IMG/VR virus record: IMGVR_UViG_3300046692_000421 | Location: 1-23,504 of that record | Reading direction: 5' to 3' (one strand) | Length of the DNA stretch: 23,504 nucleotides | Origin: a virus | In this document: piece after piece, positions 1,218 through 21,416 of the stretch | Layout: each line of letters starts with the position of its first letter | Position numbering within the stretch: the first letter of the stretch is position 1 | The notes under the pieces: generated by a model | What the model was told of the DNA's origin: nothing | The model's input: the letters and a program-made list of their open reading frames with translations, nothing else | Database searches by the model: none | Position numbers and translations under genes: made by a program

Positions 1218-1723
1218 GACGCCATACCCTTCAGCAGTGACTGCAACTGTTTGAGCTTTCCGAGCGCTTCCGCATTGCTCTCCTGCTCGGCAGCAACAGA
1301 AAGCGCGACTTCTTCAATGCGGGCGGCCATTGCCTTCATGCGTTTGCTGAACTCATCGGACAGGCTCACCACTTCGCCAGACAGGGCTGCCAGAACATCC
1401 AGCGCGCTTTCAGGCTTCTTGATCGCTACTAAGGTCGGCTTGGCTACTTGAGTCACGACTGGCTCCTTCTTGGTCTTTTGGGTCGCTGCGTCACGCTGAA
1501 ACTTGCCGCCGACTGGCTCGCGGATAAGCCCGGCGTCTTTGAGTTCGCCCAGAGCGCGGCGAACGGCGTAGGAGGAAACGCCCGTTGCATTTGCAGCTAC
1601 GGATGCGTTGTGAATGTCGTGCGTGCTCCAGACGTCCTGAATCGGGACGAACTCGAAAACCTTCCTGGCGATTGAGGATTGGCCGGCGAGCAGCTGGAGT
1701 TGGCGAGATTCGGTGATTGCCAT
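1214..1723 (-). CDS. Winged-HTH protein with C-terminal coiled coil
   Basis: A 169-residue protein. Residues ~15-78 read as a winged helix-turn-helix: a helix with STHDIHNASVAANATG, a recognition-like helix SSYAVRRALGELKDAGLI, and a basic wing. Residues ~80-105 are a Lys/Pro/Val-rich linker and ~109-167 a long alpha-helical, coiled-coil-like tail, suggesting a dimer. The ATG overlaps the stop of the preceding gene (TGATG). Genes of this shape often sit beside the replication genes of Pseudomonas phages as DNA-binding accessory or regulatory proteins; that role is inference. No catalytic motif is visible. Confidence 0.7.
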   Translation of the reverse strand: MAITESRQLQLLAGQSSIARKVFEFVPIQDVWSTHDIHNASVAANATGVSSYAVRRALGELKDAGLIREPVGGKFQRDAATQKTKKEPVVTQVAKPTLVAIKKPESALDVLAALSGEVVSLSDEFSKRMKAMAARIEEVALSVAAEQESNAEALGKLKQLQSLLKGMAS

Positions 1724-2505
1724 CAGGAAGCCCTCCGTTTCTGAAGCTCTTCGATGGCTTCCATGTGCTTGATCACACGCTCGTTGAGGTCGCGACGTTC
1801 CCGGCGGCGACGGTGAGCCTCGACCAGCTTGCGTTTGGCGTTTTGCAGGTGCATGGCCTGCTTCAATTCGCGGATTTTGATTGCGACGTTTGCGGACGGC
1901 TTAACGACTGTGCCGGTGAGCAGTCCCGCGATGGCGCGACCGTCTTCAGTGACTGGTTCGTGGCTCATGTCAGCGATCAGCAGCTGTGCACGTTCTTGCG
2001 GAATGCGCTGCAGCTCGGCGGCCTTGTTGATGGCGGCCACGCGGCGACCAGCGTCGAACCCGAGCGAGATGTGCCAGTTCACTGCCTGGGCGTTGGTGCG
2101 AGCCTCAGTGACGAACCGGTCGTAAGCACTGATGAACGCCATGCGCGCGCCGACCTTGTCGCCTACGTCCAGCACCGGGCGGGCGGCATTCAGGGCCAGC
2201 TGGATTTCGTCGGTCATTACGACAGTGTCGAACTCATCGTTCGAGGCCAGCGCGATCGCCCATGCCTCATCGCGGCCCGGGCGGCCGTCCTCGGCCTGAA
2301 TACGGCTGAGCACTGCGGCCAAGGTCAGCTTGCTGGTCAGTTCACGCCGGCAGGACTGGAGCGCTTTGCGAATTTCGCCTGCTGAGTATTCAGCGAGGTC
2401 TTCAGCCATCAGCTGAGCCGCGCCTGCACTGATGGTTTGGCCCAAAGTTTCTGCGGTGGCGCAGATCGCCCCGGCCAGTTGTGCGATTTCGTCAGAGGAA
2501 AGCAT
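1723..2505 (-). CDS. Candidate helicase-loader-like phage protein
   Basis: A 260-residue protein. I place the start at ATG 2503-2505, with AAGGGGGA seven bases upstream and a 14-base overlap with the initiator gene; a longer frame opening at 2598 only adds low-complexity residues. Residues ~15-75 (LMAEDLAEYSAGEIRKALQSC ... KLTLAAVLSRIQ) have the short helical layout of G39P-type helicase loaders, followed by GRPGRDEAWAIALAS, a block I associate with phage proteins next to replication initiators. The C-terminal third is strongly basic and helical (HRRRRERRDLNERV). By gene order it takes the place of lambda P, which brings DnaB to the origin. The function is inferred from position and a weak pattern; no ATPase motif is seen. 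Confidence 0.55.
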   Translation of the reverse strand: MLSSDEIAQLAGAICATAETLGQTISAGAAQLMAEDLAEYSAGEIRKALQSCRRELTSKLTLAAVLSRIQAEDGRPGRDEAWAIALASNDEFDTVVMTDEIQLALNAARPVLDVGDKVGARMAFISAYDRFVTEARTNAQAVNWHISLGFDAGRRVAAINKAAELQRIPQERAQLLIADMSHEPVTEDGRAIAGLLTGTVVKPSANVAIKIRELKQAMHLQNAKRKLVEAHRRRRERRDLNERVIKHMEAIEELQKRRAS

Positions 2506-3460
2506 TGCGAGGTCCCCCTTCGCGGATGTTCTGGGCGGCCTGCTGCGCGGCATTGATGTTCGCTTGGGTGTCTTCAATCTGGCGGGCGGTGCGGCCATTC
2601 ATCTGGCGGCCGGTCGCCCACTGTGTGTGGTAGGCCTCAGCCTTGGCGATCAGGTTGGTGAGGCTGTGGCAGTCGTTGACGATGCGGGCGTCGTTGATGG
2701 TCAGGTAGTACGCCGCAACGCTGTGGGCAACGTCGATGCCGAGGCGGTCAACCAGCTTGCCGAGAATTCCACCAGCGGTAGCGTTCCATACCGGCCAGCA
2801 CTGGTAGCGCTTGCGGTAGGCCATGGCGTAGTTCGCCCAGGCCTTGAACGTTTTGCAGTCGCGATCTTTGGGACCTGGCATGTCGGCAGGGATCTCGACA
2901 CGAGGAGCGTCTGGGCGATCAACCACAAGTACCAAACTCCCGGACTGGGTCGGCAGCGCCGCACCCTCCGGCAAGTCCTGACTTGTACCCTGATTGGTAT
3001 CCTGATGATTGGTATCCTGATTTGTCGGAGATTTTTCCGACCCTTGCTCGGATTTTTTTCCGACCTTGCTCGGAGATTTATCCGAGGTAGATCGGATATT
3101 TTTCCGACCCTTGTTTTCAGGTGGGGTCGGATATTTTTCCGACCCATCGAGTTTCTGGTTCCACTCAGCAGCTTTCGCGGTCAGGCGAAAAAGGGTGATG
3201 TTCGAAGTGCTCGAAAGCTGGATCAGTCCCGCCTCATCCAATGCCTTCAACATGCGGTACGCAGTGTCGGGTTTATCGGTAAGCAAAGGCAGCTCTTCGA
3301 CGATCTTCGCCTTGCTCAGCGCAAAGAAAACGCCGTCTTCAGTGGTTACCGGCTTGGTCCAGCTCGGGCAGCCGTAGACGAAAGCGAACAGCAGGGCTTG
3401 CTGCGAGTTAAGCCCCCACTCCAGCGCCTTCACCTGATTGATGGTTACGGTGAATTGCAT
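2492..3460 (-). CDS. Phage replication initiator (lambda O-like), contains origin
   Basis: A 322-residue protein with three parts. Residues ~10-100 form an N-terminal winged helix (LSKAKIVEELPLLTDKPDTAYRMLKALDEAGLIQL). Residues ~105-165 are a low-complexity Lys/Ser/Gln linker. Residues ~200-285 are a helical C-terminal domain (TFKAWANYAMAYRKRYQCWPVW ... YYLTINDARI). The linker DNA consists of five iterons, the arrangement of lambda O with ori inside its own gene. The N-terminal domain would bind the iterons and the C-terminal domain a loader or helicase. The start follows the antirepressor stop by one base with AAGG six bases upstream, and the end overlaps the candidate loader. The role is strongly supported by the iterons; sequence similarity to O itself is not obvious. 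Confidence 0.82.
   Translation of the reverse strand: MQFTVTINQVKALEWGLNSQQALLFAFVYGCPSWTKPVTTEDGVFFALSKAKIVEELPLLTDKPDTAYRMLKALDEAGLIQLSSTSNITLFRLTAKAAEWNQKLDGSEKYPTPPENKGRKNIRSTSDKSPSKVGKKSEQGSEKSPTNQDTNHQDTNQGTSQDLPEGAALPTQSGSLVLVVDRPDAPRVEIPADMPGPKDRDCKTFKAWANYAMAYRKRYQCWPVWNATAGGILGKLVDRLGIDVAHSVAAYYLTINDARIVNDCHSLTNLIAKAEAYHTQWATGRQMNGRTARQIEDTQANINAAQQAAQNIREGGPRNAFL
2992..3021. repeat. 15-bp tandem repeat beside the iterons
   Basis: Two exact copies of GATTGGTATCCTGAT lie head to tail (2992-3006 and 3007-3021), with a degenerate third unit just before 2992. They end four bases before the first iteron and encode the repeated NQDT/HQDT stretch of the initiator linker. They may be part of the origin (spacer or accessory binding) or simply an expanded linker. 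Confidence 0.7.
3025..3142. repeat. Five-iteron phage replication origin
   Basis: Five 16-bp repeats of the form TCGGA-(N)6-TCCGA occur at 3025-3040, 3048-3063, 3070-3085, 3092-3107 and 3127-3142. The last two are identical (TCGGATATTTTTCCGA); the others differ at one to three central positions. Each is a small palindrome (TCGG...CCGA) with an AT-only or near-AT core. Start-to-start distances are 23, 22, 22 and 35 bp, so the first four lie on the same helix face at two turns. The repeats lie inside the initiator gene and encode its linker. The layout matches iteron origins such as lambda ori. Confidence 0.85.
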
Positions 3461-3461
3461 G

Positions 3462-4262
3462 TCAGGCCTTCCCGACCAATTTGGCCAATTCGAGGAAGCG
3501 ATCGACGTACCAGTGAGGCTGCGTTTCGCGAGGGGATTGAGGGCTGGTCAGGTTCTTGCCGTAGGCGAGGCCCTTATCAGTAATCGACCAGAACGGAACG
3601 ACCTCCTGCTTCGAGTTCTTGCGGGTCAACACTTTGAGGTAGCCGGCGGCTTCGAGCTTTTTGTTGAAGGACACGACTGAGCCGCCCAAACCGAAGTCTT
3701 TCAGCAGTGCGGTCGCAGACTTAGTGGGCATGGAAGAGCCGCCAGCAGCATCCGGTGCAGCGTCCACGGCATAGCCTGGGAGAAACTTCGGATCGAGGCC
3801 GTTGTTCTCGGCGATCTTCGTCAGCATGAGCATCTGGCTGGACGGCGCAGGCTTCAGTAGGCGCGTGAAGCATTCCATGATGGCGATTTCGCCGATGACC
3901 TTCGTACCGTTTGCCGTGACGGCTTCGCGTGACGCCGACCGCTGCTCGAGTTCGCGCCAACGGCGGATGACCTTCATGCGCAGGCCAGCGCTGTAACCGG
4001 TGAGCAAGCAGTCTGTGTGCTCACGATCAAGCAGATATTCGGTTTGCTCGCGGTTCCGGCCGTCGAGGTAGATGTGAGCAAAACTGCTCACATTAACTTT
4101 CAGTTCGGAGGCCATGGTTTGGATGTCACGCTTGACGTCTGGATGCCGTTTACCGGTCAGGTTCGCAATTTCACGCGAAGACATCGTGCGCGCCACGTTT
4201 TGTTGGTTGTGAAAACGTGGCGCGGTTTGAGGGGTGTTGCTCGAAATTTGGTGGCTGTGCAT
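3462..4262 (-). CDS. Rha-type phage regulatory protein / antirepressor with KilAC-like C-terminus
   Basis: A 266-residue protein with start at ATG 4260-4262 (GAGG five bases upstream). Residues ~26-110 match the pRha/antirepressor N-domain: TMSSREIANLTGKRHPDVKRDI, then YLDGRNREQTEYLLDREHTDCLLTGYS and MKVIRRWRELE. The C-terminal ~100 residues form a second winged-helix-like unit (ALLKDFGLGGSVVSFNKKLEAAGYL, then PFWSITDKGLAYGKN) like KilAC domains. Rha proteins interfere with phage growth in some hosts and antirepressors inactivate CI-type repressors; which applies here is not visible. It lies between the CII-family regulator and the initiator in the PR operon, so it is expressed early. A plus-strand terminator-like hairpin sits just upstream. 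Confidence 0.8.
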   Translation of the reverse strand: MHSHQISSNTPQTAPRFHNQQNVARTMSSREIANLTGKRHPDVKRDIQTMASELKVNVSSFAHIYLDGRNREQTEYLLDREHTDCLLTGYSAGLRMKVIRRWRELEQRSASREAVTANGTKVIGEIAIMECFTRLLKPAPSSQMLMLTKIAENNGLDPKFLPGYAVDAAPDAAGGSSMPTKSATALLKDFGLGGSVVSFNKKLEAAGYLKVLTRKNSKQEVVPFWSITDKGLAYGKNLTSPQSPRETQPHWYVDRFLELAKLVGKA

Positions 4263-18339: not shown

Positions 18340-20421
18340 ATGTCCGCGCATCAGAAAAAACACCCCTTCGATTTCAAAACGCAGTACGGCCTTGGCTTCG
18401 ACCCGCAAGACGATGAGATCGTCGTGGACTTCTTCTGCGGCGGTGGCGGCGCCGGTACCGGGCTGGAAATGGGGCTGGGCCGCAAAGTCAGCGTGGCGAA
18501 GAACCACAGCGCCAAAGCAATCAGCATGCACACCATCAATCACCCGGGTGCAAAACACTTCACCACCGACGTGTTCGAGGGTGATCCGGATACGGAGTGC
18601 AGCGGCAAGGCGGTTGGCTGGTTCCACATGTCGCCGGATTGCACGCACCACAGCCAGGCGGCAGGCGGCCAGCCACGTAAGCGCGAGATTCGCAACCTGT
18701 CGTGGATTGGCCTGAAGTGGGCTGGCAAGAAAAAGCCCCGCGTCATCAGCCTGGAAAACGTGAAGCAGATCCTGCAGTGGGGTCCGCTGATCGCCAAACG
18801 CGACAAGGAAAGCGGACGGGCCATCAAGCTTGTGACCGTGCTGAACGCCAAAGGGAAGGAAGTCATCGAGAAGGTTGTTGCGGCACCTGCCGAGGTTGTC
18901 CCGGTCGGCCAGCAATTTCTGGTTCCTGATCCAAAGCGGCGCGGCACCACCTGGCGCCGGTTCGTACAGCTATTGGAAGGCATGGGCTACGCCGTCGAGT
19001 GGCGTGTTATCAAGGCCTGCGACTTTGGCGCGCCGACCAGCCGGGAGCGTCTATTTATGATCGCCCGTTCCGACGGTCAGCCGATTGTGTGGCCAGAGCC
19101 GACACACGCCAAGAAGCCCGCGAAAGGTCAGCAGAAATACCGCACCGCCGCCGAGTGCATCGATTTCAGCGATCTGGGCAAAAGCATCTTCGGACGAAAG
19201 GATGAGTTGGCCGATGCCACCAAGCGGCGCATAGCCAAAGGCATGAAGAAGTTCGTTATCGACAACCCTATCCCCTTCATCGTACCGATCGCGAACTGGT
19301 CAACTGAGGCGGTGCAGTCGATGGATGAGCCGCTGCGCGCTGTGACTTCATACCCTAAAGGCGGTTCGTTCTCTGTAGTCAGCCCGGTGATCGCGCCAGC
19401 AACCCACCAGGGCAGCGACCGCATCAACGACCCGCTCGAACCTCTGCCGACCGTGACCTGCGCCAACCGGGGCGAACTGACATTGATCAGCCCGATTCTG
19501 GCCGGGGTCGGCGGCAGAGCTGGACAAACCGAGCCACGCTCAGCCGCTGATCCGATGTATACCGTGACGGCAAAGGCAGACACCGCCATCGCTTCAGCGC
19601 ACCTGGTCAAATTCCGGTTCGACGATGAAGGCAAAGCGCTGGACGATCCACTTCCCACGATAACCAGCGGCGGCAACTACCAGCGCCCAGCAGGCGCCGC
19701 CCACGCCATGGGCATCGCCACCGCATTCATGGCGCAAATGAATGGCGGTTTCAACACCACCGACGCGAAAAGCCTCAATGACCCGATGACCACGGTGACG
19801 AATACCGGCAGTCAGCAGCAACTGGTGACGGCAAGTCTCCTGCACCTGCGAGGTAATTGTGATGCCAGGGCGGCGGATGAACCCTTGCATACTGTCAGTG
19901 CCGGCGGCACCCACCACGGCCTGATGACTGCCTTCATGGAACGTCAGTTCGGCACCAGCGTTGGCCAGGCACTGACCGACCCATCGCCGACGATCACTGC
20001 CGGTGGTGACGGAAAGAGTTCGCTAGTCAGCTTTGAGCTTTCGCCCGAGCATGAAGAAGGCGCGCTGCGGGTTGCTGCATTCCTGATCAGCTACTACGGC
20101 ACAGAGAACATGAGCACCTGCGATCAGCCGGCGCCCACGATCACGACCAAGGATCGGCTGGGCCTGGTCATCGTCATGGTAAAGGGCACGCCCTATGTGA
20201 TCGTCGATATCAGGCTGCGGATGCTGCAACCGGCTGAGCTGTACCGGGCGCAGGGATTCCCACCGGACTACATCATCACGCACGGCGCCGACGGCAAGCC
20301 GTTCACGAAGACCGAGCAGGTCCACATGTGCGGCAACAGCGTAAGCCCGCCGCCGATGGCCGCCCTCGCCCGCGCCAACGACCCATGGCGCGCCGCTGAA
20401 CGCCAAGCCGTCGCCGCCTGA
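18340..20421 (+). CDS. C5 cytosine DNA methyltransferase with repeat-type target domain
   Basis: A 693-residue enzyme, GAGGAG five bases before ATG 18340. Motif I DFFCGGGGAGTGLE (30-43), motif IV SPDCTHHS with catalytic Cys101, motif VI SLENV (137-141), motif VIII-like TSRERLFMIAR (233-243), motif IX/X at 629-672 (LQPAELYRAQGFPPDY, then MCGNSVSPPPMAAL). Between ~327 and ~612 lie about eight repeats starting D/E-P-x-x-T-V/I-T. S-adenosylmethionine supplies the methyl group. In phages such enzymes guard the genome against host restriction. No cognate endonuclease gene is adjacent, so it is likely a solitary enzyme. Confidence 0.92.
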   Translation: MSAHQKKHPFDFKTQYGLGFDPQDDEIVVDFFCGGGGAGTGLEMGLGRKVSVAKNHSAKAISMHTINHPGAKHFTTDVFEGDPDTECSGKAVGWFHMSPDCTHHSQAAGGQPRKREIRNLSWIGLKWAGKKKPRVISLENVKQILQWGPLIAKRDKESGRAIKLVTVLNAKGKEVIEKVVAAPAEVVPVGQQFLVPDPKRRGTTWRRFVQLLEGMGYAVEWRVIKACDFGAPTSRERLFMIARSDGQPIVWPEPTHAKKPAKGQQKYRTAAECIDFSDLGKSIFGRKDELADATKRRIAKGMKKFVIDNPIPFIVPIANWSTEAVQSMDEPLRAVTSYPKGGSFSVVSPVIAPATHQGSDRINDPLEPLPTVTCANRGELTLISPILAGVGGRAGQTEPRSAADPMYTVTAKADTAIASAHLVKFRFDDEGKALDDPLPTITSGGNYQRPAGAAHAMGIATAFMAQMNGGFNTTDAKSLNDPMTTVTNTGSQQQLVTASLLHLRGNCDARAADEPLHTVSAGGTHHGLMTAFMERQFGTSVGQALTDPSPTITAGGDGKSSLVSFELSPEHEEGALRVAAFLISYYGTENMSTCDQPAPTITTKDRLGLVIVMVKGTPYVIVDIRLRMLQPAELYRAQGFPPDYIITHGADGKPFTKTEQVHMCGNSVSPPPMAALARANDPWRAAERQAVAA

Positions 20422-20490: not shown

Positions 20491-20694
20491 ATGCCATTCG
20501 CGACAAGTTTTCAGCACAAGGTCGAGGCGACGATTTTCAACCTCGATGACGACGGGCCGGTGATCGCCCTGAGACTTCTTCCGTTCGGACCGATTACGCC
20601 AAAGCAGGCCCGAGAAATCGGACGCCAAATCATCCAAGCCGCCAACGCCGCCGACCAGGGCGAAGTAGGCACGTACTCGCAGGAGGGGTTATGA
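20491..20694 (+). CDS. 67-residue phage protein
   Basis: Start ATG 20491; an in-frame TTG at 20470 is less likely. MPFATSFQHKVEATIFNLDD... shows strands (VEATIFNLDDDGPVIALRLL) then a helix (TPKQAREIGRQIIQAANAAD). Small alpha/beta protein, unknown. Its TGA overlaps the ATG of the next gene, and AGGAGGGG for that gene lies in its last codons, so the two are tightly coupled. Confidence 0.65.
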   Translation: MPFATSFQHKVEATIFNLDDDGPVIALRLLPFGPITPKQAREIGRQIIQAANAADQGEVGTYSQEGL

Positions 20695-21416
20695 ACATTC
20701 CAAATGGGTGGCAAATCGATCAGCACGACAACGGCGTGATCGTCGTACAGAAGCACGGTGAGTGTGGTTATGCCGCCAGCGTTGACGTGAAAAACATCGC
20801 GAGCACGACCCTGAAGGCACTGGCGCGGGACATGCTCGCCGGCGTACCTGTGCCGCCTGCTGGTGTGGATGTGGAAGTGGAAGTGGAAGTGGAAGTGCTG
20901 GGCCACATGATCGACGACGGCACGGCAAAGTCGTACCACAAGGCATTCCCGCATTGGGCGGCCGGGTACGAAGTAACCGAACTGGTAGACCGCGCCGACG
21001 TCACCCGGTTGCAAGCTGAGCTATGCGCAAGAGCTGGCCAAATCGGGAGCCTTGCAGGTGAGCGTGACGCCCTCAAGGCTGAGGTGGAGCGGCAAGAGCA
21101 GACCCGTCTTGCGTTGCTGCGCGAGCGTGAAGAATTACTGAAGTCTCGGCGTATGTTTCAATCCGAACTGACCAAGGCGCGGGAGTTGCTTGGCGGTATG
21201 TTGTTCGCCTTCGATGACGGAGTTGGCCGCGAATGGTCTGCGCCACTTCTCGACGAGGCCCGCAAGTTCTGCCCTGCTGTCGAGTTCCAATCCGCGCCAG
21301 CCGCGAAGGGTGAAGAGCCTTTGTGCCTGCTCTGCCTGGACGAGAAGACAGTTACCGGTCCAAAAGCAGGGGATCTTGTGCGCGATTGCCCCGATTGCTG
21401 CGGCGACGAGGGATGA
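20691..21416 (+). CDS. Coiled-coil protein with C-terminal zinc-binding motif
   Basis: A 241-residue protein with AGGAGGGG directly before ATG 20691. Residues ~1-55 form a small alpha/beta part, ~60-69 a (VE)n stretch from a hexanucleotide repeat, ~100-166 a coiled coil (LQAELCARAGQIGSLAGERD ... LREREELLKSRRMF), and the end carries CLLC (212-215) and CPDC (233-236), a probable zinc knuckle. The layout resembles phage accessory proteins with variable coiled coils. No function assigned. Confidence 0.7.
   Translation: MNIPNGWQIDQHDNGVIVVQKHGECGYAASVDVKNIASTTLKALARDMLAGVPVPPAGVDVEVEVEVEVLGHMIDDGTAKSYHKAFPHWAAGYEVTELVDRADVTRLQAELCARAGQIGSLAGERDALKAEVERQEQTRLALLREREELLKSRRMFQSELTKARELLGGMLFAFDDGVGREWSAPLLDEARKFCPAVEFQSAPAAKGEEPLCLLCLDEKTVTGPKAGDLVRDCPDCCGDEG
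20865..20894. repeat. In-frame hexanucleotide repeat
   Basis: GTGGAT followed by four exact GTGGAA units (20871-20894), encoding (Val-Asp)(Val-Glu)4. The unit is six bases, so slippage would change the Val-Glu count without shifting the frame. Confidence 0.85.

Follow-up and report, generated by a model that had tools for sequence, protein, structure and literature searches.

Background

In phage lambda, the replication origin is located in the middle of the gene for the initiator, O. It comprises several inverted-repeat iterons with an A-tract, bound by O dimers, with an unwinding tract on the downstream side and the helicase loader gene next (L208; PMC5043065 and PMC7466680, in the parts of these papers available). 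In pSK41 Rep, a RepA_N plasmid initiator, the N-terminal domain binds to four Rep boxes midway along the rep gene, the central linker of the protein being encoded by the origin, and in pPR9 the N-terminal domain and origin have been swapped as a unit (PMC5703833, available part). Rep_3 iteron plasmids and ori2 of V. cholerae, the origin associated with RctB, have iterons beside repeated unwinding-element motifs (PMC10797057, available part). The iterons in PMC2647930 are those of an integrative element, unlike the array described here. Origins may also be attacked: the group targeted by the ICP1 nuclease Odn escapes by swapping the N-terminal domain and origin (PMC8263062, available part).

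The DNA analysed here, referred to as the window, is the whole of the 23.5-kb viral record IMGVR_UViG_3300046692_000421 (23,504 nucleotides), the early region of which is lambda-like. It contains five palindromes that are very probably the iterons of a phage origin lying inside its own initiator gene and operating through the dimer binding, opening and loading steps proposed below. The best reading of the sequence is of a lambda-type origin whose reader would be an unrelated initiator domain. In the literature accessible, which covered few subscription journals, neither an earlier description of this array or of the HNH-initiator fusions discussed below, nor any paper on F116 and iterons, could be found.

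Architecture of the locus

The early genes of the window are NinG, NinB, phrog_6028, an O-like gene, a Rha-type regulator, CII-like, Cro and a CI-like repressor. The O-like gene, which is the initiator gene, also matches the 'replication initiation O-like' phrog_391 (E 4e-19). The features of this region are:

1723..2505, minus strand: phrog_6028 gene in the lambda P position, proposed helicase loader; its start at 2505 overlaps the end of the initiator gene
2492..3460, minus strand: replication initiator gene, 322 aa, in the lambda O position (phrog_11527, E 6e-185)
2495..2887, minus strand: C-terminal helical domain, proposed loader contact (low-confidence model)
2888..3145, minus strand: linker, residues 106-191, encoded by the putative origin and predicted to be disordered (pLDDT <50)
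2984..2995, minus strand: 12-mer unit 3, AATCAGGGTACA (comparison with relatives)
2996..3007, minus strand: 12-mer unit 2, CATCAGGATACC (comparison with relatives)
3011..3022, minus strand: 12-mer unit 1, AATCAGGATACC, proposed unwinding element (comparison with relatives)
3025..3040, no strand: iteron 5, last in the gene direction and adjoining the 12-mers, exact palindrome
3048..3063, no strand: iteron 4, exact palindrome
3070..3085, no strand: iteron 3, exact palindrome
3092..3107, no strand: iteron 2, exact palindrome
3127..3142, no strand: iteron 1, first in the gene direction, exact palindrome
3146..3460, minus strand: N-terminal winged-helix domain, residues 1-105, proposed iteron reader (AlphaFold2 model; co-occurrence with the iteron word)
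3233..3271, minus strand: predicted recognition helix, residues 64-76, including D65, T66, Y68 and R69 (DSSP on the model; conservation)

The earlier note had described five 16-bp palindromic repeats inside the initiator gene, spaced by 22-23 bp with one interval of 35, and an exact scan agrees. Five exact TCGGA-N6-TCCGA palindromes are present at 3025-3142, all within the gene, with start-to-start spacings of 23, 22, 22 and 35, and no exact copy is found elsewhere in the window. When up to one mismatch is allowed, there are 6 matches in the window, as against a mean of 1.02 and a largest value of 4 in 100 dinucleotide shuffles. The sites have an A-tract centre, and their centres are mostly two helical turns apart. 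The neighbouring 15-bp tandem repeat is also real and adjoins the array (2991-3021, 2.1 copies, 100% match); rather than standing apart, it is a variant of a conserved 12/15-bp repeat that immediately follows the last iteron (2984-3022). These 12-mers occupy a place like that of the unwinding tract of lambda, and the stretch in the window is only 59% A+T. Searching for DnaA boxes gave 23 one-mismatch matches in the window against 21.7 expected, none of them between 872 and 4074.

Elsewhere in the window, a 693-aa ORF (18340-20421) resembles by eye a DNA cytosine methyltransferase, and the hexamer GTGGAA is repeated in tandem (5.5 copies, 20865-20897) within the ORF at 20691-21416.

Conservation of the array across relatives

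The strongest evidence came from the comparison of iterons across related phages that the earlier note had called for. The relatives, which are not independent observations, were taken in as 80 of 255, 80 of 413 and 80 of 592, together with 10 of 55 phage records having the N-domain. Among 178 distinct N-domain genes, a count that leaves out two of about 25% identity (L088 and L089), 173 carry three or more sites, counting those with up to one mismatched arm position, and two or more of these sites are exact. Divided by N-domain identity to the window, the array-positive genes are 83 of 85 (at least 85%), 66 of 67 (60-85%), 3 of 4 (45-60%) and 21 of 22 (below 45%). Relatives belonging to several phyla, with identities as low as 30%, have the same iteron word after the N-domain: it is present in Mannheimia and Psychrobacter phages (37%), a Fusobacterium genome (36%) and Flavobacterium phage FCL-2 (47%), as well as in Psychrobacter and Halomonas genomes. 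Similar TCGGA/TCCG repeats occur in the sequence of a Leptotrichia plasmid, which lies outside the 178-gene count. The number of sites in relatives is mostly 3 to 8, and 504 of 696 spacing steps are 22 or 23 bp. When whole records were scanned, all 26 related viral records had 4-5 exact sites each, clustered in one array among the matches listed. The proposal that the N-terminal 100 or so residues are the likely iteron reader is supported by this sequence evidence.

Five genes are array-negative. One (L163) lies at a contig end, one (L087) has a single exact site with the others degenerate, and two (L126 and L172) are HNH-nuclease fusions. In the fifth (L197, 2501-3430), the arms are AGGGA/TCCCT in place of TCGGA/TCCGA, and the predicted recognition helix has the substitution Y68K; 12-mer-like sequence and palindromy are both retained. 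This gene may represent a natural change of specificity.

Initiator frames that end early were seen in L181 (near 2501-2866) and L097 (near 2498-2881), giving 121 and 127 aa, with similar repeats continuing beyond; that of L181 is shifted ahead of its last iteron.

Selection on the DNA of the array

All of the frame, codon and diversity counts come from genes included by having at least two sites. In 109 distinct genes of this kind, 546 sites are distributed over frames 0, 1 and 2 as 311, 123 and 112, and the peptides encoded by the iterons in the three frames are unrelated (SEKYPT, VGKKSE and GRKKIR). Among 80 genes that share one layout, third-position diversity averages 0.008 in the arms, against 0.26 in the stretches separating the sites and 0.32 across the N-domain; the arm figure is partly conditioned, since genes were admitted for sites that depart from the arms at no more than one position. 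The corresponding value for the 12-mers, 0.068, is not conditioned in this way. Translation of the sites in three frames, together with the near-invariance of their third codon positions, indicates that selection is acting on the array as DNA. The 12-mers also have a codon preference of their own, with asparagine codons AAT and AAC in the ratio 268:3, compared with 246:668 elsewhere in the same 87 GC-rich genes; as these are related to one another, a P value for the contrast cannot be taken as a probability. Of 171 distinct genes, 170 have the last iteron and the 12-mers in frame 0; the exception has a frameshift. This constancy is read as a sign that only in that frame are the AT-rich repeats free of stop codons.

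Exchange of N-terminal domains and their repeats

TCGGA arrays are absent from the seven phage records that share mainly or only the C-domain (L090-L096). A direct-repeat scan of L090-L095 found another repeat array at that place in five of the six, L094 having only a 12-bp pair. Two further N-domain families were distinguished from that with the TCGGA array (family 1). The 21 distinct genes of family 2 have varied palindromes about 23 bp apart, and 19 of them at least two copies of the 12-mer CAGAGACTACA; in family 3, which is of HTH_36 type, at least two copies of the 12-mer GAACCAGTCA are found in 67 of 75 distinct genes. No TCGGA site occurs in any of the 21 family-2 or 75 family-3 genes, and the 12-mers of these two families reach two copies in none of 170 family-1 genes, which were included by having at least two TCGGA sites, so that the presence of a TCGGA site in all 170 holds by construction.

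The gene that follows behaves differently, phrog_6028 being located downstream of the C-domain whatever the N-domain (L090, L091, L092 and L095). Among 176 family-1 loci, with clusters typed by representatives, the next gene is phrog_6028 in 121, an IstB/DnaC-like AAA+ protein in 30, lambda P in 14, an untyped cluster in 4 and DnaB in 2; the other five comprise two HNH fusions, FCL-2, one frameshift and one gene that is methyltransferase-like by eye. The next gene of L086 is a methyltransferase too, and the neighbour rule has exceptions. Because the relatives sharing only the C-domain carry other N-domains, iterons and 12-mers, these three components appear to behave as one swappable origin cassette, with the C-domain tracking the downstream helicase-loading gene. 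The phrog_6028 product is proposed to be a helicase loader. Its model is confident and all-helical (pLDDT 81), with no match in the PDB below E 1, and the phrog has no assigned function.

Relationship to described initiators

The AlphaFold2 model places a winged helix at residues 1-103 (pLDDT about 68-90 over residues 1-100), while the C-domain is helical, poorly modelled and of low confidence. The top Foldseek matches of the initiator model are weak, at E 5.5e-3 and 5.9e-3, to 4pql and 4pt7. These PDB entries, named as a DNA-binding protein and an initiator, are presumably RepA_N plasmid initiator N-domains. VIA gave a Z of 9.2 (3.0 Å, 91 residues) against a plasmid initiator N-domain and 9.7 (72 residues) against LexA. 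Kinship with RepA_N, suggested by the fold only, was negative in the sequence test: no RepA_N Pfam match was found in 15 members at E up to 1. The lambda initiator family is no nearer. At E up to 1 the window protein has no Pfam match to PF04492, which detects lambda O at 6e-36 and P22 gp18 at 7e-38, and hhalign against lambda O aligned 20 columns at E 0.45. Hence, by analogy, the initiator is likely to work like lambda O and pSK41 Rep, although by sequence it belongs to neither family.

The layout at the locus is that of lambda, as the earlier note had held: the repeats are inverted, have an A-tract and lie mid-gene, the tract proposed to unwind is on the downstream side, and a putative loader gene is next (compared with L208 and the available parts of PMC7466680 and PMC5043065). 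Sequence evidence supports both this likeness and the difference in the iteron word. The window N-domain also lacks detectable sequence kinship with that of lambda, conserved 12-mers replace the purine-rich tract of lambda, and the next gene is phrog_6028. Palindromic iterons had been thought distinctive, which is correct in relation to plasmids with non-palindromic direct iterons, all of the window sites being palindromes, but not in relation to lambda, whose iterons are inverted repeats too (PMC5043065 and PMC7466680, available parts). With RepA_N plasmids the locus shares a central position in the initiator gene, here that of the iteron array, for which origin activity is supposed by analogy; it differs in being found in phages rather than Firmicute plasmids and in its weak fold match. 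Like Rep_3 plasmids and ori2, it has iterons beside repeated motifs of a proposed unwinding element, and the RctB motif (G/A)ATCA resembles the AATCA of the GC-rich 12-mer (PMC10797057, available part), but AT-rich relatives do not retain AATCA.

An opening word shared with lambda was also considered. A 12-mer weight matrix was run across the complete lambda sequence, a portion of P22 and six further loci; its eight best matches did not include the lambda origin. One P22 match, ranked third, fell in the A+T-rich tract of that phage, and Riah (L090) alone placed two matches where they would be expected, ranked first and fourth. The matrix gave no support to the likeness, noticed by eye, of the lambda/P22 repeats (ACAAAAGACA) to the 12-mer, and an opening word common to both systems was discarded as a general proposition.

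Proposed mechanism and alternative explanations

In the mechanism proposed, whose steps are modelled on lambda (PMC5043065 and PMC7466680, available parts) and pSK41 (PMC5703833, available part), an N-terminal winged-helix dimer would bind each TCGGA-N6-TCCGA site, dimers would assemble across the array and open the adjoining 12-bp repeats, and the C-terminal domain, held on a disordered linker encoded by the origin, would pass on the helicase via the phrog_6028 product. The origin function of the array is likewise suggested by analogy with lambda and pSK41. The observations underlying it are the array itself, its conservation at the DNA level, its association with the N-domain but not with the C-domain, the 12-mers at their constant position after the last iteron and the helicase or loader genes adjacent in most relatives.

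Palindromes bound by winged-helix dimers are typical operators, and the model resembles LexA and MarR-type domains, such that the sites might instead serve the N-domain as an operator limiting initiator expression, with the true origin elsewhere. This is unlikely, as several copies are present, over 300 bp into the gene, a 12-mer tract in a fixed position follows the last of them, the next gene in most relatives is of helicase or loader type, and each of the 26 whole records has only 4-5 sites. It is considerably less probable still that the repeats simply reflect a low-complexity Ser/Lys/Asn linker selected as protein, the repetition of the DNA being incidental. The predicted disorder of the linker and the near-constant frame of the last iteron and 12-mers would fit such a reading, but it is already contradicted by the unrelated peptides of the three frames, by the arm third positions, which are the least variable class measured, and by the preference for AAT over AAC in the 12-mers.

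A role of the palindromes as RNA hairpins in the initiator mRNA could account for palindromy being kept when the arms change, as in L197 and the family-2 phages; yet the stems would be only 5 bp with a 6-nt loop, and the 22 or 23 bp step that predominates suits a face of the DNA helix rather than RNA, making this reading just as improbable as the protein-level one. Scarcely credible is the chance insertion into the initiator gene of a dispersed mobile repeat. Short palindromes in several copies might be expected of such an element, but this is already contradicted by the lack of other exact copies in the window and by the constant position of the sites, behind the N-domain, in 173 of 178 genes.

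Fusions of the N-domain with HNH nucleases

A search with the HNH part of L172 yielded 51 loci. In 47 of these (L317-L363), an in-frame family-1 N-domain is located ahead of an HNH domain, with a family-3 initiator directly after; in L358 only a short piece of the N-domain matches, and L334 is cut by a contig end. The HNH domain is PF01844 (E 1e-10), and phrog_11527 and HNH families are both matched, meaning that an initiator-type DNA-binding domain is joined to a nuclease domain. The carriers lack the putative target array: no TCGGA site is found in the 4-7 kb around the 47 loci, and 35 whole fusion records contain one stray site in total, as against 4-5 in each of the 26 initiator records. 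Among 45 of the 47 fusion proteins, 41 of them distinct, D65, Y68 and R69 are kept in 41 of 41 and T66 in 40. In most fusions the wing is shorter by four residues, and binding could be weaker as a result. The window family, phrog_11527, matches residues 1-106 of the fusion and also the last part of the following gene, as though an older gene had been broken in two. The remaining four of the 51 loci are stand-alone HNH genes, three beside family-1 initiators with arrays and one beside a family-2 initiator.

These stand-alone genes (L364-L367, near 3285-3737) have no initiator N-domain and lie directly upstream of the family-2 or family-1 initiator. A family-2 initiator of 430 aa (L222, 1501 on; L364, 3737 on) has a second, different HNH-like stretch in frame within its linker and retains its C-domain.

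Collinearity with family-1 loci holds on both flanks for 25 of 29 fusion loci. For 23 of the 25 pairs listed, homology breaks off within the N-domain or at its end (gene nt 234-318) and is restored at nt 500-568, immediately beyond the 12-mers; for L355 and L360 the restored homology starts further downstream. At 20 of 44 loci the upstream flank has its closest counterpart in a family-1 phage and not in another fusion phage, as does the downstream flank at 18 of 41; the larger family-1 sample favours both outcomes. One fusion locus (L319) is 99% like L037 upstream and 96% like L317 in the cassette. Fusion and family-1 lists have in common the metagenomes 3300046458, 3300041411, 3300046492, 3300009036, 3300030838, 3300017792 and 3300048928. 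Among 390 genomes of one order, 11 matched, one with a full-length fusion.

On this sequence evidence, the fusions resemble an Odn-type origin-directed nuclease on a mobile cassette that replaces origins. Odn, their nearest precedent though not that of the window, has been compared with GIY-YIG enzymes, whereas the fusions are HNH; it is carried by a lytic phage against its satellite, the fusions by related temperate-type phages (PMC8263062, available part). The HNH fusions also differ in travelling with a replacement initiator and origin. Plain recombination could account for movement of the cassette, the HNH domain could have cleavage sites other than the TCGGA origin, and the N-domain of the fusion could be a remnant, against which stands the retention of the contact residues. 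A broader scheme is put forward tentatively, being plausible but leaning slightly towards doubt: a paired iteron/12-mer code for each N-domain family, swapped across phyla, would have been weaponised by the HNH cassette, as in a homing nuclease whose target is the origin and whose cargo is its substitute. Each N-domain family would have its own palindromic iteron and 12-bp opening repeat, moved as one cassette; the fusion would cleave the TCGGA origin in a rival phage, and recombination through the N-domain and C-domain flanks that the two share would put an immune origin in its place.

Implications

An initiator family without a Pfam name gains a defined DNA word and layout, and phrog_6028, whose function is unassigned, a suggested role as helicase loader. 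The relatives form a natural domain-swap series that splits origin reading (N-domain, iterons and 12-mers) from helicase recruitment (C-domain and next gene). Some related phages have the proposed reading head coupled to a predicted nuclease, an arrangement suggestive of an attack on the starting points of rivals. In the literature accessible, origin-directed nucleases appear only in work on V. cholerae phages or defence. If the fusions do cut TCGGA origins, phages would be fighting over replication origins by a route otherwise found only for ICP1 against PLE satellites, and the swapping of origins would then be escape under selection rather than neutral mosaicism.
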